From an uncultured Bacilli bacterium (GTDB taxonomy: Bacteria > Bacillota_I > Bacilli_A > RF39 > UBA660): a stretch of DNA of 9,596 nucleotides. Numbering within the stretch: the first letter of the stretch is position 1; every line of letters begins with the position of its first letter. A model generated the notes under the pieces. That model made no database searches, was not told where the DNA came from, and saw only the letters and a program-made list of their open reading frames with translations. This document shows positions 1 to 9,596 of this stretch, one piece after another. The stretch spans positions 1 through 9,596 of the forward strand of contig CATLBU010000030.1 in the NCBI GenBank assembly GCA_949879835.1, read 5' to 3'. Made by a program: the position numbers and the translations under genes.

Positions 1-873
1 TTACTTGCTGATATTTTAGAATATGATAATGTTGTTAATGAATTCTTTTTACCAGTATTAAAATCTAAAATAGATAATCCAAAAGAAGAATTAAGTAAAG
101 AACTAAAAAAATTAAATAATAAAAAAGAAAGAATCAAAAAAGCATATATTGATTCTCTATTTACAGAAGAAGAATTTAAAGAAGAAACAAAACTAATTGA
201 AGAACAAGTTGAACTTATCAATTCAAAACTATTAGAAAATGAACAAGCTGAACAATTAAATTTTACTATTGATGATATTCTCCTAAAAAGAGATATGGAC
301 TTTATCAATAAAGTTAAATTACCAATATCTTATTATGCTTTTAATGAAAACTGGGACTTACTTGATAGAGAAACTAAAGCAGATATTGTTATGAGATATA
401 TTGATGATGTTGACCTTGAAATGAAAGATAATAGTTATGAAATTAAACAAATAAACTTTAGGAGTACATTTTATAGTGATTTTGAAGAATTATATAAGCA
501 AGGTTATATTGATAAGAAAAGACCTCTAGTTTTAGATTTTAATGGTATAAGAACAGAAATAAATATCAGATATAGTGAGTACTTACCTATAAAGGATGTA
601 TTGCAACACTTATATAGATTAAATGAATATTACGAAGTTAATTTTTATAAAGGAACACTATATAAAGAAACTGAAAAATTAGATATGTTTCCGCTTCAAA
701 AAAATGAAGTACCAATTAGAATATTCCCATTACAAGAAAATAATAATGGTGATAAAGATTATGTATCAATGGGAATGTTTGCTACTAAAAACACGCCTAA
801 TGATATAAAGGTTAATATTAGGGATGTGTTTGAAACAATACCAGATAATGTTAATGAAGAAGATTTTTGTTAA
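1..873 (+). CDS. Large serine recombinase, C-terminal part (cut by window edge)
   Basis: The reading frame is open from the first base to the TAA at 871-873, giving 290 residues with no start; the ATG at 295 is internal. The whole fragment aligns by eye with the C-terminal half of the complete recombinase at 6065-8020. Shared blocks include EYD(N/S)VVN(E/Q)FFLP near the start, DILxKRD(M/I)DFIN around residue 95, the (A)DIVMRYI/(A)DLIMNYI segment, and a late V(P/R)IRIFP / IVRIFPM block. It therefore covers the coiled-coil arm and C-terminal domain of a site-specific large serine recombinase; the catalytic serine domain, recombinase domain and zinc ribbon lie before the window. Such enzymes integrate and excise mobile elements. 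Its stop codon is the first base pairs of a hairpin, and a relaxase gene follows, as for the second copy. The two recombinases are clearly diverged, so this is not a recent duplication. Whether the missing part is intact cannot be seen. Confidence 0.9.
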   Translation, partial: LLADILEYDNVVNEFFLPVLKSKIDNPKEELSKELKKLNNKKERIKKAYIDSLFTEEEFKEETKLIEEQVELINSKLLENEQAEQLNFTIDDILLKRDMDFINKVKLPISYYAFNENWDLLDRETKADIVMRYIDDVDLEMKDNSYEIKQINFRSTFYSDFEELYKQGYIDKKRPLVLDFNGIRTEINIRYSEYLPIKDVLQHLYRLNEYYEVNFYKGTLYKETEKLDMFPLQKNEVPIRIFPLQENNNGDKDYVSMGMFATKNTPNDIKVNIRDVFETIPDNVNEEDFC

Positions 874-1042
874 CTTTTTATCTTTAAAAAGTTATAACAA
901 TCGAGGTACGTTTTGCGAGTTTACTCGTGAAAGTAGCGATAGATTGTTAAATAAAATTATGAATACTTTTACTTACGATAGTTTGTAAAAGGCATGAATA
1001 ATTTTCAAAGATAAAATAATAAGCAGTGCTTACTATTTTATC
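871..1042 (+). other. Dense hairpin block, candidate single-strand origin or structured RNA
   Basis: Four inverted-repeat structures follow one another almost without spacers. H1, 871-894: ten perfect pairs (871-880 with 885-894), starting on the recombinase stop codon. H2, 895-949: outer arms TAACAATC/GATTGTTA (895-902, 942-949) enclose a longer inner stem (907-935) with two G-T pairs and one bulge. H3, 953-1005: outer arms AAAATTAT/ATAATTTT (953-960, 998-1005) enclose CTTTTAC/GTAAAAG (966-972, 985-991) with loop TTACGATAGTTT. H4, 1010-1042: GATAAAATA/TATTTTATC plus TAAGC/GCTTA with one mismatch and loop AGT. None is followed by a T-tract, so these are not ordinary terminators. TAGCGA at 934-939 matches the CS-6 motif known from ssoA-type lagging-strand origins of rolling-circle plasmids, which also sit beside pre/mob genes. 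That function is inferred; the pairings are direct observations. The second module lacks this block except for a hairpin in the H4 position. Confidence 0.6.
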
Positions 1043-1060
1043 AGAAGTCTTATGTAGTTT

Positions 1061-1085
1061 TATTTCATTACGAAGTTTTGAAATA
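1061..1085 (+). other. Conserved hairpin with TTACGAAGTTT loop, copy 1
   Basis: Arms TATTTCA (1061-1067) and TGAAATA (1079-1085) pair perfectly around the 11-nt loop TTACGAAGTTT. The second module has the same loop at 8042-8052 but arms TTGTTTTA/TAAAACAA, with two compensated base-pair changes (A-T to G-C, C-G to T-A). A variant with loop TTACGATAGTTT lies at 966-991. Both main copies are preceded by TATGTA(G/A)TTTT and followed by GGATTCTAAGG. Conservation of loop sequence with only the pairing kept in the stem points to selection on a folded form (RNA or single-stranded DNA). It probably belongs to the transfer region; its exact role is unknown. Confidence 0.65.
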
Positions 1086-1108
1086 TTACGAAATAAGATA
1101 GGTGGATT

Positions 1109-1199
1109 CTAAGGTTGCCTAAACCTTAGCCCCCAGATTTTGATACTTGTGTCAAAATCTATAGGGGGTTAGAGATTTTGACAGAGTCAAAATTAACCC
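1109..1199 (+). other. oriT: Origin of transfer (oriT), MobV/pMV158-like, copy 1
   Basis: Three inverted repeats lie just upstream of the relaxase gene. CTAAGGTT/AACCTTAG pairs at 1109-1116 and 1122-1129. AGATTTTGA/TCAAAATCT (1135-1143, 1152-1160) is flanked by CCCCC (1130-1134) and GGGGG (1164-1168), which extend the hairpin. ATTTTGAC/GTCAAAAT (1175-1182, 1186-1193) is flanked by GGGTTA (1166-1171) and TAACCC (1194-1199). The last two hairpins share the GGGTTA bases and so exclude each other. The pMV158 oriT recognised by MobM has the same plan: hairpin, ATAGTGTG/TTA with the nick before TTA, then a repeat of the left arm. By analogy the nick here is predicted between 1168 and 1169 on the + strand. 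The same layout occurs at 8084-8168. The exact nick position is inferred. Confidence 0.82.
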
Positions 1200-1215
1200 T
1201 ACTATAAATAGTAGG
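1178..1215 (+). promoter_or_regulatory. Putative relaxase promoter embedded in oriT and a palindrome
   Basis: TTGACA at 1178-1183 is a perfect -35 hexamer and TATAAA at 1203-1208 a fair -10, but the 19-nt spacer is longer than the usual 17. The -35 lies inside the second oriT inverted repeat. The -10 sits in the centre of CCTACTA-taaa-TAGTAGG (1198-1215), which looks like an operator and has no counterpart in the second module. Transcription would start near 1215, leaving a short leader with the strong AAAGGGGG site (1230-1236) before the ATG at 1247. Overlap of mob promoter and oriT is known for pMV158, where MobM represses its own gene; autoregulation here is inferred. Confidence 0.5.
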
Positions 1216-1246
1216 TCTCTGTTCTAACAAAGGGGGAATATAAAAT

Positions 1247-2599
1247 ATGAATGATAAAGAAGAATTATCTTATTCATTACACTTAAGTAATGATAAAAAT
1301 AAATCTAAAAAAGCAAGAAGAAGTGTAAAAAATACTGAAACTGGAACTACTTCTCTATCTAATAATGCTATTCAAAATCATCAACAATTATCAAAGGTTG
1401 ATAAACATAATTTAAGAAAATATGATGATGATAAAAAATTAATTTGCACAATTAGAGGAACATCTTCTATTGTAGAAGATACTAAAAATTTGTATTTAGA
1501 TTTATTTGAAGATGCAAGAATTAAATATAATGAAAAACAAACTAGAAATGATAGGAAAATAGAAAACTATTTTAATCATATTTCAAATGATAACAAAAGA
1601 GATCTTGCTTGTGAGATTATTATTGAACTTGGCGATATGGACTTTTGGGCTGATAAAGATGATAAATTTAAAAAGAAAATGGTAGAAGTTTTTAAAGAAC
1701 AAATATTAGATTTAGAAGAAGGTGTACCTAACTTTAAAATAGCAAATGCCACCATACATTTTGATGAATCTAGTCCACATTTACATATTGTTGGTGTACC
1801 TTTCAAAGATGGAATGAAAAATGGTATGGAGAAACAAGTTGGTAAATCTGATGTCTTTAATAAAATAAGTTTAAAAGAAATTCAAGATAAAATGAGAGTA
1901 TATTGTATTAATTCATTTAATAGAATTTATCATTTAAACTACACTCTTAAAGCAAAAGAAGAAGGTAGAAATGTTGATATTAATGTTGCTAATATGAATG
2001 AATATAAAAAGTTTAAACGAGAACAAGAAAAATACAAAAAGCAACTTAAGGAATTAAATAGTAAAACTGATGAATTACAAAATAAATCTAATGAGATAAA
2101 TGATATTATAGATAATTTAAAACCTACATTAATGAATAAAAATAACTACTTTATTTCTAGTGAAAATATTGATAAAGTCAAAAAGTATATAGAACAAACT
2201 AATGATACTACATCTAATTTACGAAATGCAAATGATATAAATATAGTCTTAAAAAAATATGAAGATGATTTAAGAGAACACTCTAATGAAGTTAGAAACT
2301 TGAAAAAGAAAATCAAAACTAGAGATGATAGAATTGAAGAATTAGAAATTGATTTAAATGATGCTAATGAAACTATTGATGAATTAGAAGATAAGGTATC
2401 AGAATTACAAAAAATAGTTGATTACTTTAAAGAGTTATGGAAAAAGTTTATAGAATTTTTACAAAATAAATTCTTCTCAAATGATAAATATGATGAAATC
2501 ATTAATGATTTATATGATGAAGATATACTTGATGAAAATGATATTGATACTATACAAAACAATTCTAAAGGTAAAGATGATTTTGATAGAGATTTATAG
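1247..2599 (+). CDS. MobV-family relaxase (Pre/Mob plasmid recombination enzyme), copy 1
   Basis: A 450-residue relaxase expected to nick the adjacent oriT and pilot the transferred strand using a helper conjugation apparatus. It carries the MobV signature H171-x-D173-E174-x-x-P177-H178-L-H180, the metal-binding histidine motif of the Pre/Mob family (Pfam Mob_Pre), and an HNLRKY motif at 54-59 matching the conserved HNxR N-terminal motif. The N-terminal segment ending TSLSNNAIQN is nearly the same in the second relaxase (8213-9595). Residues about 255-290 and 330-400 are charged heptad-like coiled coil, and the protein ends in KGKDDF plus an acidic tail, shared with the other copy. There is no membrane segment. 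The ATG at 1247 follows AAAGGGGG with a 10-nt gap and was chosen for that reason. It shares about the length and full domain order of the second copy, so it appears intact. Family assignment is firm; partner elements and helper are unknown. Confidence 0.92.
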   Translation: MNDKEELSYSLHLSNDKNKSKKARRSVKNTETGTTSLSNNAIQNHQQLSKVDKHNLRKYDDDKKLICTIRGTSSIVEDTKNLYLDLFEDARIKYNEKQTRNDRKIENYFNHISNDNKRDLACEIIIELGDMDFWADKDDKFKKKMVEVFKEQILDLEEGVPNFKIANATIHFDESSPHLHIVGVPFKDGMKNGMEKQVGKSDVFNKISLKEIQDKMRVYCINSFNRIYHLNYTLKAKEEGRNVDINVANMNEYKKFKREQEKYKKQLKELNSKTDELQNKSNEINDIIDNLKPTLMNKNNYFISSENIDKVKKYIEQTNDTTSNLRNANDINIVLKKYEDDLREHSNEVRNLKKKIKTRDDRIEELEIDLNDANETIDELEDKVSELQKIVDYFKELWKKFIEFLQNKFFSNDKYDEIINDLYDEDILDENDIDTIQNNSKGKDDFDRDL

Positions 2600-2626
2600 T
2601 AAATCATATCTAAATATAAGAAAATT

Positions 2627-2635
2627 TGTTATAAT
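2627..2635 (+). promoter_or_regulatory. Extended -10 promoter of the cargo operon
   Basis: TGTTATAAT is a perfect extended -10 (TG-n-TATAAT, hexamer 2630-2635) in the 60-nt gap after relaxase 1. No good -35 is visible 17 nt upstream, which extended -10 promoters tolerate. Transcription would begin near 2642. This argues that the cargo genes are transcribed independently of the relaxase and supports the TTG at 2660, rather than the ATG at 2645, as the first start. Confidence 0.6.
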
Positions 2636-2659
2636 GTTAATGAAATGGGGATGATTTTC

Positions 2660-3304
2660 TTGAATATTATAAGAACTATTGATTTATGGACAGAGCAACG
2701 CGATAATCATTATGAATGTTTTAATGGTGCTTTTGTAGATGGATTTGAAAATAATAAAATTGCATTTGATAAATATAAAATAGTGAAAAACTGTAATTGC
2801 ATAATTACAGTAAAGCCAGAAGATATAAATATAAGAAATAAGCATAATGCAATTATATTTTATAAAAATGATATTCCTGTTAGACTAATGGTTATAAATT
2901 CAAATACTAATATTGACAAATGTATAGATATAGCATTAAATCAATATTTTGAAGATTCTATATTAAAAGATTTATATCAAAAGTTAAATATAAAATCATC
3001 AATAATTGATATGAATGAAGAACCAATAAATGATAATGTTATTGATGATGAAATAGATACAGGTTCTTGTGATAGATGGAATTTATTATATAATATGCTA
3101 CAAGGTCTTTATACAGAAACTAATAATGCTTATGGTAATTTTTCTAGTGATAAATACTATTTTATACCAGATTTATTTATAAAATATGATTTAAAAACAG
3201 ATAGTGAAATATTTGAAATTACCCATAAATGTGCATTTATAAATACAACAAAAACCAGATTGATTCCAATTCAAGAAAATTCGCCATTAACAAAAAATAT
3301 ATGA
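2660..3304 (+). CDS. Hypothetical protein, first gene of cargo operon
   Basis: I do not recognise this family. The product is about 214 residues, soluble, without signal peptide, membrane segment or an obvious catalytic motif. The N-terminal half (to about residue 105) has alternating beta-like segments such as NCIITV, NAIIFY and RLMVIN; the middle (about 115-135) is acidic; the C-terminal half contains a DKYYFIPDLFIKYDL stretch that may be strand-rich. The frame also allows ATG at 2645 or 2651, but the predicted transcription start near 2642 would make the first nearly leaderless. TTG at 2660 has GGGG nine bases upstream, so I chose it with modest confidence. It ends in TGA and is followed after 22 nt by the phosphotransferase gene, suggesting co-transcription with the rest of the cargo. 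Base composition resembles its neighbours. A role as a cargo or accessory protein of the element is only inferred from position. Confidence 0.7.
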   Translation: MNIIRTIDLWTEQRDNHYECFNGAFVDGFENNKIAFDKYKIVKNCNCIITVKPEDINIRNKHNAIIFYKNDIPVRLMVINSNTNIDKCIDIALNQYFEDSILKDLYQKLNIKSSIIDMNEEPINDNVIDDEIDTGSCDRWNLLYNMLQGLYTETNNAYGNFSSDKYYFIPDLFIKYDLKTDSEIFEITHKCAFINTTKTRLIPIQENSPLTKNI

Positions 3305-3326
3305 ATATGAAAGTGAGATGATAATA

Positions 3327-4340
3327 ATGGATACATTTGAACTACAAGATTTTAATAAAAGAATAGGACTTAATACTGATTTAAGAAATATATCTCAAAA
3401 AATATGCGAAAGTTATAATTTAGGAGAATTTATTTCAAATGAATTGATAACTATTGGATATGAAGATTATAATTACTATTTAACAACCTCAACTGGGAAA
3501 TATTGTGTTAAGATTTTTAGTAAAATTAGAACAAAAGAAGATATTAAAAATTATTTAGATAGAATTAGAGCAGTAGCCAATAGTGAAATAAACTCTCCAA
3601 AACCTTTAATAGTTAATGATGACATTACTTTAGCATTAGATTATAAGGATAATCATTATGATATTTGTGTATTTGAATATATAAATGGAAAGAATTATTT
3701 TGAATTAGAAGAAAAACCAAGTAAAGATATAATTAAAGAAATTGCCAGACAAACTGCAATGATAAATAATTTAGATATAAAGCCAAATTTTATTTATGAT
3801 ACTTGGGCAATAGTAAATTTTGGGGATGAATATAAGAAAAAGAGAGAATATCTTTCAGACCGTTATAAAAGTGAATTTGATAAATTGTTAGTAGAATTAA
3901 ATAAAACTGATTTTGAAAACCTCCCAAAAGCATTTGTTCACGGAGATATAATAAGCACAAATGTAATGTTAGATAATAATTCAAAAATATGGATTATAGA
4001 TTTTGCAGTTTCTAATTATTTACCAAGAATAATAGATTTGGCAGTTATTGCTTGTAATATGTGTTTAGATGAGAAGTCAAAGAATAATACTTATGATAAT
4101 ATTTCAGTGTTATTAAGTGAATATAATAAATATAATCAATTAACAAAATATGAATTAAAAGTATTTGGAACTTTTTATAAATTAGCAAATGCAATGCACA
4201 TTTTACAACCACAATATATAATTCAAATGGATGGAGATTCAGAAGAAAATCAATATTGGCTTAATGAAGGTATAATAGGATACTCTTATAGTGAAGATGA
4301 AACATTTGAAAAAGCAATAATTAAAAGATTGGAGAAATAA
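3327..4340 (+). CDS. Aminoglycoside-phosphotransferase-fold (APH/choline kinase-like) phosphotransferase
   Basis: A 337-residue cytoplasmic protein of the phosphotransferase enzyme family (Pfam APH), which transfers phosphate from a nucleotide to small molecules. Visible landmarks are YCVK62IF, the likely ATP-binding lysine in the N-lobe; FVH205GD207 with N212, the Brenner-motif catalytic loop; and IID225F, the Mg-binding aspartate, where the canonical glycine is replaced by alanine. RIIDLA follows, typical of APH and homoserine-kinase-like proteins. All key residues are present, so it should be active. The substrate cannot be told: antibiotic inactivation is possible, but sequences of this type also include homoserine, choline and sugar kinases, and it does not read as a well-known resistance enzyme. 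ATG at 3318 is in frame, but GTGAG at 3313-3317 is correctly spaced (9 nt) only for the ATG at 3327. Its own 3' end carries the ribosome site for the next gene, two bases away. Confidence 0.85.
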   Translation: MDTFELQDFNKRIGLNTDLRNISQKICESYNLGEFISNELITIGYEDYNYYLTTSTGKYCVKIFSKIRTKEDIKNYLDRIRAVANSEINSPKPLIVNDDITLALDYKDNHYDICVFEYINGKNYFELEEKPSKDIIKEIARQTAMINNLDIKPNFIYDTWAIVNFGDEYKKKREYLSDRYKSEFDKLLVELNKTDFENLPKAFVHGDIISTNVMLDNNSKIWIIDFAVSNYLPRIIDLAVIACNMCLDEKSKNNTYDNISVLLSEYNKYNQLTKYELKVFGTFYKLANAMHILQPQYIIQMDGDSEENQYWLNEGIIGYSYSEDETFEKAIIKRLEK

Positions 4341-4342
4341 TA

Positions 4343-4687
4343 ATGAATAGAGATTTTGCTGAAAAATGGTTAAATAAATTAAGAGAATATTGGTTTAATA
4401 AGGACATAGAAAATGCAGTATCACTATTTACTAAAACAACTTTTTATCAAGAAACACCCTTTATGAAACCATATACTTCTATTGAAGAAATAAATCAAGA
4501 ATGGCAACATATCAAAAATGAAAATATACAGAATATAGAATTTCACATATTAGCAATAGATGGTAATACAATAATTGTTCAATGGATTCTTAAACAAAAT
4601 GATAAGGACTTTGATGGTATTTATGAAATAAAATTTAATGAATTAAATGAATGTATTTATTTTAAAAGTTGGGAAATGGTTAAATAG
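4343..4687 (+). CDS. NTF2-like / SnoaL-like small protein
   Basis: A 114-residue protein with the pattern of nuclear-transport-factor-2-like (SnoaL-like) domains: an N-terminal helix with FAEKWLNKLREYWFNKDIENAVSLF, a strand with TTFYQETPF, the helix around SIEEINQEWQHI, then strands NIEFHILAIDGN, TIIVQWIL, DGIYEIKFN and CIYFKSWEM. The fold forms a cone-shaped pocket used for enzymes, binding proteins and subunits. The N-terminal W and the xxWxx in strand 4 are usual for the family. No unique catalytic set is identifiable, so the function remains open. GGAG at 4331-4334 lies inside the end of the phosphotransferase gene, eight bases before this ATG, and only two bases separate the genes, so translational coupling is likely. 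A joint action with the phosphotransferase on one small molecule is a guess from context. Confidence 0.75.
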   Translation: MNRDFAEKWLNKLREYWFNKDIENAVSLFTKTTFYQETPFMKPYTSIEEINQEWQHIKNENIQNIEFHILAIDGNTIIVQWILKQNDKDFDGIYEIKFNELNECIYFKSWEMVK

Positions 4688-4690
4688 AAC

Positions 4691-5395
4691 ATGAAAAATC
4701 AAGTATTTGATGAACTAATAAACTCAATGTCTAATTGTTCTAAATGCACAAGTTTAAAAAAGAAAAATGGAAAAGATTGCTCACTCATAAATATTTATCA
4801 AACACAAGAATTTTGTAAAAACATTCCATCTATTTGGACTGACTGGTATAATAGATTAGATTCTAAAATAATGATTATAGGTCAAGATTGGGGACCATAT
4901 AATGATATGAGACAATTGAATGAGCAATATATTAACAATCCAGATCGAGAAAACTGGAAGTATCTAGTTGAACAGGAAAAAAGCAATACAAAAAAATTAT
5001 TAAACTATTATATAAGAGAATCTTCAGAAAACAAATATAGTTTAGATGATATGTTTATTACCAACGCTATAATGTGTGCTAGAAAAGGAAACAATTATCG
5101 TGGTAATAATATTGATTTGAAAAAGTCTACTAATAATTGTAGCAAATATTTATTAAAGCAAATAAATATAGTGAAACCTAAAGTGATATTAACGCTAGGA
5201 TATTATCCACTACTATCATTATCTAAAATTTATAGTTTTAATATTGAAAAAACTTTAAAGGATGTTATTAACAACAGCCCAGAAATTATGATAAATGATT
5301 TTATAATAATACCTTTATATCATCCAGTAGCACAAATAAAGAAAAGTGAACAATTAAAACAATATAAAAGAATATGGAAATACATAATACAATAA
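4691..5395 (+). CDS. Uracil-DNA-glycosylase-superfamily protein with Fe-S cysteine pattern
   Basis: A 234-residue protein of the UDG superfamily, enzymes that cut damaged or modified bases from DNA. Motif A reads IMIIGQD66WGP and motif B IIPLYH211PVA, with ITNAIMC and the IVKPKVILTLG segment between them in family order. Cysteines C16, C19, C129 and C150 fall where family 4 and 5 glycosylases bind a 4Fe-4S cluster; C30 and C42 are additional. Motif A, however, has Gln-Asp as in family 1 (GQDPYH) rather than the GE(A/G)PG of family 4, so it is a mixed type. The substrate could be uracil or a modified phage base. It starts three bases after the NTF2-like gene with no strong ribosome site, consistent with translational coupling. 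It is the last gene of the cargo operon. Family assignment is good; exact activity is not established. Confidence 0.82.
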   Translation: MKNQVFDELINSMSNCSKCTSLKKKNGKDCSLINIYQTQEFCKNIPSIWTDWYNRLDSKIMIIGQDWGPYNDMRQLNEQYINNPDRENWKYLVEQEKSNTKKLLNYYIRESSENKYSLDDMFITNAIMCARKGNNYRGNNIDLKKSTNNCSKYLLKQINIVKPKVILTLGYYPLLSLSKIYSFNIEKTLKDVINNSPEIMINDFIIIPLYHPVAQIKKSEQLKQYKRIWKYIIQ

Positions 5396-5568
5396 TCAAA
5401 ATATACACAAATAGGTATAGAATTTTTAGCAAAAATAGATTATAATTATATTAAGAAATTGATACAAATATTGTATTGATTACTGAATTTAGTGAAAAAA
5501 GTTTGAAATAACTTTCTTACTCGCACCATTGACGAATCTGTTCGAACTATTCGAACTTTTAGATATAG
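5396..5568 (+). repeat. Gap after cargo operon with TTCGAACT direct repeats, possible element junction
   Basis: There is no gene in this stretch. An inverted repeat ATACAA-ata-TTGTAT lies at 5462-5476. TTCGAACT occurs twice with a 9-nt period (5541-5548, 5550-5557); the first with the preceding G forms the palindrome GTTCGAAC. The segment from about 5519 to 5557 is visibly richer in G and C than everything around it. It lies where the cargo of module 1 should meet the start of module 2, so a recombinase attachment junction or a repressor operator are both possible. No matching second att copy was found in the window. Confidence 0.35.
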
Positions 5569-5593
5569 AATCAATCGAAAGATTGGTTTTTTT
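5569..5593 (+). terminator. Rho-independent terminator
   Basis: AATCAATC (5569-5576) and GATTGGTT (5581-5588) pair with one G-T wobble around a GAAA tetraloop, and seven T residues (5587-5593) follow. This is a classic intrinsic terminator on the + strand. It most simply ends cargo-operon transcripts, 174 nt after the glycosylase stop, and insulates the gene at 5635. If a promoter lies between 5396 and 5560 it could also act as an attenuator. Confidence 0.75.
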
Positions 5594-5608
5594 CTGTTTT
5601 TAGAAAGA

Positions 5609-5640
5609 AATCATAGTCAGAAAGGTTGGTGTCTATGATT
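5609..5640 (+). promoter_or_regulatory. Hairpin covering the start codon of the 5635 gene
   Basis: AATCATAG (5609-5616) pairs perfectly with CTATGATT (5633-5640), which contains the ATG start at 5635. The ribosome-binding sequence AAAGG (5621-5625) lies in the 16-nt loop. Such a layout can limit translation when folded. Regulation is inferred from the pairing alone. Confidence 0.4.
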
Positions 5641-5910
5641 AATGTAATCAAAAAAGAAATTGATATGGAGGAATCTTTAAAAAAACGATTAGAGATAATA
5701 TGTGATTTTTGTAATACTACTCCAACTATTATAAATGGTAGTATTCGTAAAATTGATAAAACAAACTTAAATTATATTGAGCCTCATAGAATTATTATCA
5801 ATAATGTAATGTTTCTTGCCTTTAATTATTCAAATGAAATCTATATCAATAATTTAAGTAAGAAAATTAAAATATCAGAATTAGAAAACTACATAAAAAC
5901 TATGAATTAA
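5635..5910 (+). CDS. Small hypothetical protein upstream of the recombinase
   Basis: An unrecognised 91-residue protein. It is mildly basic at the N-terminus and contains CDFC at about residues 24-27, then beta-like segments (RIIINNVMFLAFNYS, EIYINNL) and a C-terminal helix. There is no signal peptide or membrane segment and no clear helix-turn-helix. ATG 5635 was chosen because AAAGG at 5621-5625 is nine bases upstream; an in-frame TTG at 5626 directly abuts that site and is unlikely. The gene is separated from the cargo by a terminator and from the recombinase by an attenuator-like leader, so it belongs by position to the second module. It may be an excision factor or regulator, as small genes beside integrases often are, but nothing in the sequence proves this. 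Confidence 0.65.
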   Translation: MINVIKKEIDMEESLKKRLEIICDFCNTTPTIINGSIRKIDKTNLNYIEPHRIIINNVMFLAFNYSNEIYINNLSKKIKISELENYIKTMN

Positions 5911-5951
5911 TACTTATTCCCTACAAATGGGTAATAGACAAAATAAGAAAA

Positions 5952-6011
5952 ATGTTGGATTATGTAATTGATTTACAAAGACTTATTTTGAGAAGTAAAA
6001 GTATTAGTTAG
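5952..6011 (+). CDS. Possible 19-residue leader peptide
   Basis: ATG 5952 opens a 19-codon frame ending with TAG at 6009-6011. It runs through the whole left arm of the downstream terminator (5990-5999) and stops in its loop, the arrangement expected if ribosome movement controls terminator folding. The ribosome site is weak (AAGAA just upstream), there is no run of a single rare amino acid, and chance short frames are common in AT-rich DNA. Low confidence. Confidence 0.25.
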   Translation: MLDYVIDLQRLILRSKSIS

Positions 6012-6035
6012 TAGTACCTTTACTTCTCTTTTTTT
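5990..6035 (+). terminator. Attenuator-type terminator in the recombinase leader
   Basis: GAGAAGTAAA (5990-5999) pairs perfectly with TTTACTTCTC (6019-6028); GTA/TAC (6001-6003, 6015-6017) extends the stem after one mismatch, and seven T residues follow (6029-6035). It ends 29 nt before the recombinase ATG, so it must be read through for recombinase expression from upstream promoters. An upstream pair CAAAATAAG/CTTATTTTG (5939-5947, 5982-5990) touches the terminator stem by one base, and a CCC/GGG hairpin with one bulge lies at 5915-5936. It may simply end the small gene's transcript, or gate the recombinase. Confidence 0.75.
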
Positions 6036-6061
6036 GAAAAATTAGAAAAAGGAGATGATAA

Positions 6062-8020
<1,959 letters not shown>

Positions 8021-8033
8021 TCTTTATGTAATT

Positions 8034-8168
8034 TTGTTTTATTACGAAGTTTTAAAACAACATGGAATAAAGTAAAACGGATTCTAAGGTGTCCTTAGCC
8101 CACGAGGTTATTTTGCTATACTTGGCAAAATACCTAGGGGGTTAAATATTTTGTCAAAGCCAAAATAT
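8034..8168 (+). other. oriT: Origin of transfer (oriT) with conserved hairpins, copy 2
   Basis: The order of structures matches 1061-1199. TTGTTTTA/TAAAACAA (8034-8041, 8053-8060) holds the loop TTACGAAGTTT. CTAAGG/CCTTAG pairs at 8084-8089 and 8093-8098. TATTTTGC/GCAAAATA (8109-8116, 8125-8132) has loop TATACTTG and is extended by AGG/CCT. CCTAGGGGGTTA follows, with the nick predicted between 8141 and 8142 by analogy with pMV158. ATATTTTG/CAAAATAT (8146-8153, 8161-8168) is the second hairpin. Stem bases differ from copy 1 but pairing is kept. The long hairpin block of copy 1 is absent. TTGTCA at 8151-8156 resembles a -35, but no -10 at proper distance is convincing. The 44 nt from here to the relaxase start are A-rich and hold only its ribosome site. 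Confidence 0.8.
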
Positions 8169-8212
8169 ACCTCTAAAAACAACTATAAAAAATATAAAAA
8201 TAAAGGAGCGTG

Positions 8213-9595
8213 ATGACTATACAATTAGCATATTCATTTCATTTAGGTAGTGATAAGAATAAGAAAAATAGTTCTAGAAATAGTGCAAAATCTAATGTAA
8301 GTGGTACGACATCTAAGAGTAATAATGCAATACAAAATTCAGCAGGATTAACCAAGTGTGATAACCATAATTACAGAAAATATGATGACAGAGAGTATGA
8401 CATTGAGATTATTAGAGGCAGTTCTTCTCTTGTAGATGATGTGAAAAAGTTATATAGAGATGAGTTTGATGAAGCAAAAGAAGAATACAATGCTAAACAG
8501 ACAAGAGAAAATAGGAAAATAAAAGACTATTTCACTCATGTAAGTAATAATTCTAAAAGTGATCTAGCTTGTGAGATTATTATAGAACTTGGAGATAAAA
8601 AGTATTGGGATACTAAAGATATGGATTTCAAAAAACGGATGACAAATGTATTTAAACAACAAGTTATTGATTTAGAAACAATGTTACCTACTTTTAAAAT
8701 AGCAAGTGCTATTATTCATTATGATGAAACAAGTCCACATCTTCATATTGTTGGAGTTCCTATTAAAATTGGTGGTAAAAATGGTATGAAAAAACAAGTT
8801 GGAAAAAGTGATGTATTTACTAAAGAATCACTTCGTAAACTTCAAGATAAAATGAGAATGCTTTGTATTGAATCATTTAATAAAGAATATAATCTTACTA
8901 ACTCGTTAAAAGACAAGAAAAAAGGCAGAAATCGAGATTATCATATAACCGAAATGGATGACTATATGGAAATGAAAGAACACCTAGAAAGAAATCAAGA
9001 AAAATTAGAAATAGCCAACAAGAAATCATTAGAACTTGATAATCATACTAAAGAAGTAAAAGAGATTATAAATGATTTAAAAACTACTTTAACTTCAAAA
9101 GAAAAATATGTTTTAAAACAAGAAGATAAAGACAAATTAGTATCTTATATTGATTCTGTTAGTAAAACAAATGAAGAATATAAGAAAATCCAAACTTTAT
9201 CTGTAACTCTTAATAATGTAGATACCGAAATTAAGGAAAATCATGATGAAATCAAAACACTTACTGAAAACAATGAAGCACTTACTTTGAGAGTAGAAAA
9301 TCTTGCCAAAAATATTAAAAGCAAAGATAAGGAAATAGAAGAACTTAAAGAAGAAAATCACTCATTAAAAACCACATTAGAATTTTGGGAAGATAAATTT
9401 TTACGAGTTATGTCTTTAATTAAAGACAAGTTATTCGGTAAAGAAAAGGAACGAGAAAAATACTTTGATGTATCAAAAGACTTATACAAAAAAGGTATTA
9501 TTAAAGAAGATACGTTTAATGAGTTAAAGGACAAATATAATTTTAGCAAAGAGCATGATGATAAAGGAAAAGATGATTTTGAAATAGAAATATAG
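8213..9595 (+). CDS. MobV-family relaxase (Pre/Mob plasmid recombination enzyme), copy 2
   Basis: A 460-residue relaxase, complete with its TAG stop one base before the window ends. It carries H169-x-D171-E172-x-x-P175-H176-L-H178 and HNYRKY at 52-57, the same MobV motifs as the copy at 1247-2599. The two proteins match over almost the whole catalytic half (for example SNNAIQN, DLACEIIIELGD, KKQVGKSDVF/KQVGKSDVF, LQDKMR). The C-terminal half, from about residue 250, is a diverged coiled coil rich in Lys and Glu; both end in KGKDDF plus a charged tail. It should act on the oriT at 8084-8168. AAAGGAG (8202-8208) lies four bases before ATG 8213; GTG at 8210 is in frame but only one base from that site, so ATG was preferred. 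DNA identity with copy 1 is high in several stretches, which could support recombination between them. Confidence 0.92.
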   Translation: MTIQLAYSFHLGSDKNKKNSSRNSAKSNVSGTTSKSNNAIQNSAGLTKCDNHNYRKYDDREYDIEIIRGSSSLVDDVKKLYRDEFDEAKEEYNAKQTRENRKIKDYFTHVSNNSKSDLACEIIIELGDKKYWDTKDMDFKKRMTNVFKQQVIDLETMLPTFKIASAIIHYDETSPHLHIVGVPIKIGGKNGMKKQVGKSDVFTKESLRKLQDKMRMLCIESFNKEYNLTNSLKDKKKGRNRDYHITEMDDYMEMKEHLERNQEKLEIANKKSLELDNHTKEVKEIINDLKTTLTSKEKYVLKQEDKDKLVSYIDSVSKTNEEYKKIQTLSVTLNNVDTEIKENHDEIKTLTENNEALTLRVENLAKNIKSKDKEIEELKEENHSLKTTLEFWEDKFLRVMSLIKDKLFGKEKEREKYFDVSKDLYKKGIIKEDTFNELKDKYNFSKEHDDKGKDDFEIEI

Positions 9596-9596
9596 G

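Follow-up and report, generated by a model that had tools for sequence, protein, structure and literature searches.

A strand-oriented hairpin array beside the oriT of mobilizable elements in uncultured Bacilli, a candidate sso-like origin

Four hairpins stand back to back just 5′ of the oriT of a mobilizable element from an uncultured member of the Bacilli, and the most widely shared of them recurs, in related and unrelated element settings, on one side and one strand of a nick-like motif. On balance, and from sequence comparison, we favour the view that this array consists of single-stranded DNA hairpins in the part of the transferred strand that enters last, where they would start synthesis of the complementary strand. 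The array would thus be sso-like, with a sequence class of its own. To our knowledge, most single-strand origins described so far come from small rolling-circle plasmids of a few cultured Firmicutes, and they have seldom been identified in integrated mobilizable elements.

Organization of the window

The window, by which we mean the whole stretch of 9,596 nucleotides analysed, contains a tandem pair of mobilizable-element units (1-9596). At its edge lies an open frame (1-873, + strand) for the C-terminal region of rec1, a serine recombinase whose remainder is cut off. This part alone gave no match in a Pfam search; it shares 38% identity with the C-terminal region of the second recombinase (6062-8020), which matches the Resolvase and Recombinase families of Pfam. 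The hairpin block is followed by an oriT core, placed by its motif (1109-1171, + strand), and by a MobV-type relaxase, relaxase 1 (1247-2599, + strand; Pfam Mob_Pre, E 6.2e-16). By analogy with the GTGTG/TT site of pMV158, the predicted cut falls after G1168, within TAGGGGG|TTA at 1162-1171. Cargo genes stand between relaxase 1 and the second recombinase; those at 3318-4340 and 4691-5395 probably encode, to judge by Pfam, a phosphotransferase-like protein of the APH family and a member of the uracil-DNA-glycosylase family. The second unit has its own oriT, with a nick-like motif at 8135-8144 (+ strand), and its own relaxase (8210-9595). By blastn, 1043-1246 aligns to 8024-8166 (73%). The whole hairpin block is missing from this second element, which is without hairpin II; the hairpin II model, R1, finds 894-948 alone in the window. 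On another contig, JALFCF010000003.1, a unit resembling that of the second relaxase and one resembling that of relaxase 1 (L060 and L025) lie less than 20 kb apart.

The first-pass annotation had described four adjoining inverted repeats at 871-1042, the first of which borrows the recombinase stop codon, and this description holds in full. All four are read on the + strand, with gaps of 0, 3 and 4 nt between them. Hairpin I (871-894) begins with the TAA that ends the recombinase frame 1-873; it has 10 perfect pairs and a loop of 4. Hairpin II (895-949), the most widely shared unit, has 8 outer pairs and inner stems interrupted by a bulged G and by an internal loop. Hairpin III (953-1005) has an outer stem of 8 pairs and an inner stem of 7; beyond a TT/TT internal loop comes a tip of 2 pairs, reading TTAC-GATA-GTTT. 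The arms of hairpin IV (1010-1042) are 94% complementary; they are conserved except at one variable, often mismatched position, which is A.C in the window and differs in relatives. A fifth, weaker hairpin with a III-like tip, TTACGAAGTTT, is located at the oriT edge (1048-1098, + strand). It folds weakly, being equalled by 5 of 200 shuffled sequences, and a similar sequence adjoins the second oriT.

Folding of the block on both strands, which the annotation had proposed to compare with shuffled controls, is better than in 200 of 200 shuffles as DNA or as RNA, and is best on the + strand. As single-stranded DNA, the + strand reaches -32.7 kcal/mol (shuffled mean -12.2; z -7.6; 0/200) and the - strand -27.8 (shuffled mean -11.4; z -6.2; 0/200). 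The corresponding RNA values are -51.0 (z -8.1) and -42.8 (z -6.9), each with 0/200. Taken singly as + strand DNA, hairpins I, II and IV are equalled by none of 200 shuffles and hairpin III by one. On the - strand, III and IV still fold well (0/200 for each), and hairpin II is unremarkable, being matched by 23 of 200 shuffles.

Conservation of the hairpins

With relaxase 1 as query, GTDB genomes yielded 62 loci, all of them in metagenome-assembled genomes, mostly named Bacilli or Tenericutes. In these, the block goes together with the module of oriT and relaxase, whatever the recombinase: it adjoins recombinases near the window's own (for example 94% in L001) and others with about 40% identity to that one across the corresponding part (for example L002 and L007). 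Presence was tallied in the 44 relaxase-1 loci having the region, window included, with models for II and III and loose patterns for I and IV. Hairpin II occurs in 28 of the 44 and is absent from 16, III occurs in 32, and all four hairpins occur in 18, the loose patterns making the counts of I and IV rough: IV was named in the blockless L009 and L010, and L008 keeps I by eye. On inspection, I and II are kept in L004 and L032, I, II and IV in L012 and L022, III and IV in L005, L018, L019, L027, L029 and L033, and III in L038. To judge from these sequences, hairpins seem to be lost as whole units, and the array seems modular. The annotation would have taken absence of the block from close relatives that transfer normally as a refutation. 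As to absence, L009, L010 and the second element of the window are without the whole block, and other relatives keep all or part of it.

Some loci carry rearrangements. At L035:3399-4604, an IS110-family transposase gene (Pfam DEDD_Tnp_IS110, Transposase_20) stands between the start of hairpin II and hairpin III, and this insertion seems to have split hairpin II. Two tandem copies of hairpin II precede one nick-like site at L085:3642-3841 and at L118:1439-1554. At L068:1779-3046 the relaxase frame is interrupted (two tblastn pieces, stops); thus, array-bearing elements are not all intact.

Covariation in homologues was also among the checks proposed by the annotation, and it is present in hairpins II and III, unequalled in 500 shuffles for each. 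MAFFT alignments were made without structure fitting. That of hairpin II has 23 rows (20 distinct) out of 28 hairpins II, leaving out L022, L031 and L032 (identical copies) as well as L034 and L061 (degenerate or unlike). That of hairpin III has 23 rows out of 33 hairpins III, leaving out L013, L030 and L031 (identical to L011) as well as L016, L020, L023, L039, L040, L043 and L061 (truncated by the pattern, degenerate or dissimilar). For hairpin II, 98.7% of the cells are paired versus 85.4% in shuffles, and the covariation score is 0.385 versus 0.126 (0/500), with slid controls at 0.088 or below. In these 23 rows, neither the 7 of 19 pairs changed on both sides (75/500 shuffles reach this) nor the number of pair types (304/500) goes beyond shuffling. 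For hairpin III, 96.8% of the cells are paired versus 89.6%, and covariation is 0.225 versus 0.114 (0/500), with slid controls up to 0.111; both sides have changed in 5 of 17 pairs (29/500). A larger set of 87 model matches to hairpin II, 73 of them distinct, gives both-sided changes in 15 of 19 pairs versus 8.9 in shuffles (0/500) and a covariation of 0.457 versus 0.117, in rows that were fitted to the model and hence lean towards it.

In these 73 distinct sequences, two neighbouring wobble pairs of hairpin II are kept, T.G in 71 and G.T in 69, every departure being Watson-Crick. On the other strand, the kept wobbles would be A.C mismatches. With DNA parameters, hairpin II is more stable on the + strand, that of the nick motif, in 71 of the 73, with means of -9.06 kcal/mol on this strand and -5.68 on the other, a difference of -3.38 versus -0.86 in shuffles. 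The strand bias of hairpin III is slight, the + strand being favoured in 18 of 23. One-sided pair changes were also considered as a sign of polarity; once the two kept wobbles of hairpin II are removed they are uninformative, G.T and A.C cells being nearly equal (9 versus 7).

Position relative to the nick-like motif

The surroundings of hairpin II were surveyed in 63 places, 19 of the 29 from 14 genomes linked to the loci and 44 new ones from family and class searches. These places are part of a larger set (112 in the family alone) and are not independent. A MobV-type nick-like motif, written as TAG[GTA]G[GAT]G[TA]TA and searched within 450 nt, occurs 3′ of hairpin II on the same strand in 49 of the 63 places (46 distinct stretches). 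It occurs 5′ of hairpin II in 0/63 and on the reverse strand in 0/63, and these two controls outweigh the 49 because the pattern was written after some of the loci had been seen. The distance from hairpin II to the predicted cut is 55-280 nt. Among the 14 places without the motif, the contig ends too soon in three (L113, L115, L125); nine are closely followed by a MobV relaxase gene on the same strand, and in some of these the motif can be recognized in altered form, for example as TAGGAAG|TTA or TAGGAGG|TTA; L107 has an oriT-edge remnant only and L089 nothing. The match in L089 (3412-3466) is weaker (39.4 bits) and lies among ordinary-looking genes, with no oriT or relaxase found nearby; it is perhaps a relic or a chance match.

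An inverted copy (at least 6 of 7) of the 7-mer before the cut is seen in only 16 of the 49 places, versus 2.15 in shuffles, and the window has 5 of 7. A III-like tip follows hairpin II within 200 nt on its 3′ side in 26 of 60 places; on the 5′ side there are 4, on the reverse strand 0, and block shuffles give a mean of 0.05.

Three settings can be distinguished. In the first, which is that of the window, a serine recombinase gene, the hairpins, TAGGGGG|TTA and a relaxase gene on the same strand succeed one another (20 of 49 places, and 2 more with a TAGGGAG variant). In the second (10 of 49), the motif is TAGTGAG|ATA, a gene for an AAA-type ATPase precedes the hairpins (Pfam AAA_25, tested in L074), and a Mob_Pre relaxase stands on the same strand, followed in L084 and L088 by a tyrosine integrase. 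In the third (17 of 49), the motif is TAGTGTG|TTA, preceded by hairpin II and, in many places, by further hairpins with III-like tips; the relaxase gene runs opposite to the hairpins in 5 of the 17 (L085, L116, L117, L118, L134) and is absent from the examined stretch in 12. The relaxase of L092, which is of this kind, is a Mob_Pre protein encoded at a distance of about 4 kb, on the opposite strand. In L116, L117 and L118, both neighbouring genes are antiparallel to the hairpins. The array therefore occurs with several nick variants and with serine or tyrosine integrases, and what is common to all settings is the side and strand of the hairpins relative to the nick-like motif. In two elements of the TAGTGTG kind, small proteins encoded at L094:2657-3073 and L095:11643-12080 resemble, by eye, single-strand-binding proteins. 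A terminator just 5′ of hairpin II also looked likely by eye in such elements, and a scan of L070 and L080 found none.

The constancy of side and distance to the nick-like motif would also be expected if the hairpins were an extension of oriT itself, extruding on supercoiled DNA or folding on the nicked strand to dock a relaxosome accessory protein, a coupling protein or some shared factor, with a role in nicking, loading or end-of-transfer closure instead of priming. This is the main rival to an sso-like array, and we consider it rather unlikely. Hairpins do operate in the oriT of pMV158 (PMC5863519), and the tip of hairpin III is shared with the hairpin at the oriT edge. Yet the same hairpins accompany different nick variants and different relaxases, several of these only 42-66% alike to the queries, and none of the hairpin II places in the 14 genomes has a TraG-D_C coupling-protein match at 30 kb or less on its own contig, although 13 of these genomes, whose contigs are fragmentary, do have such a match. 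Both the variety of nicks and the lack of a coupling-protein match within 30 kb weaken this reading.

A structured RNA was the alternative offered by the annotation, which had in mind control of relaxase expression. The + strand would be transcribed, and the hairpins would act in the RNA, on the relaxase gene or as a small RNA. The fold of the + strand as RNA (z -8.1), the retention of G.U wobble pairs, and the same-strand relaxase downstream in elements of the window's kind agree with such a role. In the TAGTGTG places, however, the relaxase is either opposite (the five loci named above) or absent from the stretch, and L116-L118 have both neighbouring genes opposite to the hairpins. The hairpins follow the nick and not the relaxase gene, and a relaxase-leader RNA is thus unfit as a general reading, its place in a relaxase transcript being inconstant. 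In the window, moreover, the best promoter-like site for relaxase 1 (1178-1205, + strand; 10/12 matches) lies 3′ of the block, though promoter-like sites in 600-1400 number 8 versus 5.5 expected. Nor is there an Rfam match: with Rfam 15, no family reached its gathering threshold in the window, 18 related loci gave 2 tRNAs alone, and a relaxed search of 860-1246 returned 12 matches, the best with E 0.24, under half its own threshold. What remains of this reading is an RNA with its own promoter, and we regard a role in RNA, taken as a whole, as improbable.

Distribution across genomes and databases

Model R1 matched all of the 14 genomes, in 29 places, the presence of relaxase-1 relatives having been the ground for choosing these genomes. 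Larger searches of family, class and phylum used stricter filters, and only their best candidates were scored. The family is that of the genome containing L001 (G001; Candidatus Onthousia excrementipullorum, NCBI Bacilli incertae sedis). Matches were obtained in 73 of 193 genomes of this family (112 places), in 18 of 296 in the class and in 8 of 392 in the phylum, every positive of the class and phylum searches being already among the genomes of the family search or the earlier ones. By blastn, 860-1110 had no match in plasmids and phages, the window oriT (1043-1246) none in 72,556 plasmid records, a stretch of L070 none in plasmids and a stretch of L116 none in phages. A search for relaxase 1 in viral contigs gave 17 pattern-matching stretches, with no relative among them. 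A literature search, mainly of open papers and with most subscription papers outside its reach, retrieved no report of this hairpin array.

Comparison with known single-strand origins

The annotation had proposed a single-strand origin beside the oriT of an integrative mobilizable element, partly on the strength of a CS-6 motif of the ssoA type. The setting stood up, with a hairpin block 5′ of oriT, compensatory changes and a fixed orientation; the CS-6 clue did not. TAGCGA is indeed present at 934-939, but TAGCGA or TAGCGT occurs in 6 of the 73 distinct hairpins II, so that it appears incidental. Within hairpin II it sits in the inner stem and internal loop and not in the apical loop, and TAGCGW is found 3 times in the window versus 1.57 expected, a number reached by 45 of 200 shuffles. 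The RSB motif of ssoA has no match in the window with up to 3 mismatches, and none around the 63 hairpin II places with 3 mismatches or fewer (mean 5.83 versus 5.63 in shuffles). The missing RSB and the unconserved CS-6 rule out membership of ssoA. As for the other types, RSB is no test for ssoU or ssoT, because the plasmids compared are themselves without a close copy (best mismatches 4 in pUB110, 5 in pTA1060 and 6 in pTA1040).

The comparison with ssoA, ssoU and ssoT that the annotation had called for found no likeness, whether through the ssoA motifs or through models R1 and R2 run on pTA1060, pTA1040 and pUB110. For ssoT, R1 had its best E at 0.098 on a short stretch of the pTA1060 and pTA1040 sso regions, and R2 had no match; for ssoU, R1 had its best E at 0.11 in the whole of pUB110, and R2 again none. 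In sequence, the array is therefore unlike ssoA and unlike the ssoT and ssoU plasmids compared here, the ssoT contrast resting on pTA1060 and pTA1040, whose sso sequences differ from it.

Likenesses are found at the level of organization. In pMV158, ssoU adjoins oriT. The ssoU of pMV158 and pUB110 resembles the array in that hairpins adjoin the oriT of a MobV element. It also matters for transfer: its deletion in pMV158 is reported to lower transfer to E. faecalis 300-1000-fold (PMC4595007). An integrated element can also carry such a site. ICEBs1 has a functional sso1 with three stem-loops, of the ssoT group with pTA1060 and pTA1040 (PMC4595007). This sso1 is downstream of oriT (PMC4595007), whereas the array of the window is upstream. 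The authors of that study argue that, for an element that integrates, having its sso upstream could be harmful, and also state that most sso sites are upstream of the leading-strand origin (PMC4595007). IMESag-rpsI has a putative ssoA beside a MobV relaxase, downstream of the relaxase gene (PMC5090054); it is like the element of the window in being an IME with a putative sso next to a MobV relaxase, and unlike it in the sso type and in the downstream location. More generally, known sso function on the displaced strand only and in one orientation only, as large folds read by RNA polymerase, and may limit host range (PMC5703833). The array shares with them imperfect hairpins on one strand, in an orientation fixed to the nick, here a nick deduced from its motif.

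MobM cuts pMV158 at GTGTG/TT, upstream of mobM (PMC5090054, PMC5863519). This oriT, of the MOBV1 type, corresponds to the TAGTGTG|TTA that follows the hairpins in 17 of the 63 places; the window's TAGGGGG|TTA differs from it.

Proposed function

By analogy with the position of the pMV158 nick upstream of mobM, the + strand would be the nicked and transferred strand; transfer would start from 1169, with the 5′ end leading, and would finish with the array. Once the + strand is single, the folded hairpins would be recognized by a priming activity of the host, either RNA polymerase, as at known sso, or primase. A primer would be laid at the hairpins and the complementary strand would be made away from oriT, so that copying would begin with the gene on the 5′ side of the array, which in the window is that of the recombinase. 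Such a mechanism would serve mobilizable elements within a single family of uncultured Bacilli.

Several observations support such an sso-like role: the side and orientation fixed to the nick, the covariation of II and III, the stability of hairpin II on the + strand with its two kept wobble pairs, and the recurrence of the hairpins with several nick variants and both integrase types. Support also comes from the properties of known sso, which are strand-bound, usable in one orientation only, folded and host-limiting, the R1 positives of the class and phylum searches being all among the genomes of the family search or the earlier ones. It is weakened by the existence of array-less elements, by the lack of RSB and of a conserved CS-6, and by the argument of the ICEBs1 authors about upstream sso. 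The slight strand bias of III, a nick strand that in the window is deduced from sequence, and the small share of places with an inverted copy of the 7-mer before the cut weaken it further. In the F plasmid, a single-strand structure, Frpo, is read as a promoter (PMC4595007), and the array might by the same token drive expression from the entering strand and be more than a primer. This we consider very improbable, as the array would enter the recipient last, and RNA made on the + strand as template would run antisense to the recombinase gene.

Returning to the sso-like role, a more specific version of it may be put forward more tentatively. The array may represent a lineage-specific class of conjugative single-strand origins, without RSB or CS-6, that functions as a plug-in priming module. 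Its signal would be made of hairpin II, with the bulged G and tandem T.G wobble, and hairpin III, with the TT/TT loop and mini-stem, and would be recognized by a factor belonging to a single bacterial family. The module stands with several MobV oriT kinds and with unrelated integrases, and whole hairpins come and go; on this reading, elements would trade it. The covarying stems offer well-defined mutants. If the sso-like role holds, a searchable model of such an origin would be at hand, and computation would mark the oriT and the transfer direction of many uncharacterised elements. The role could also account for the confinement of these elements to a single host family, since their priming signal would be read there only.
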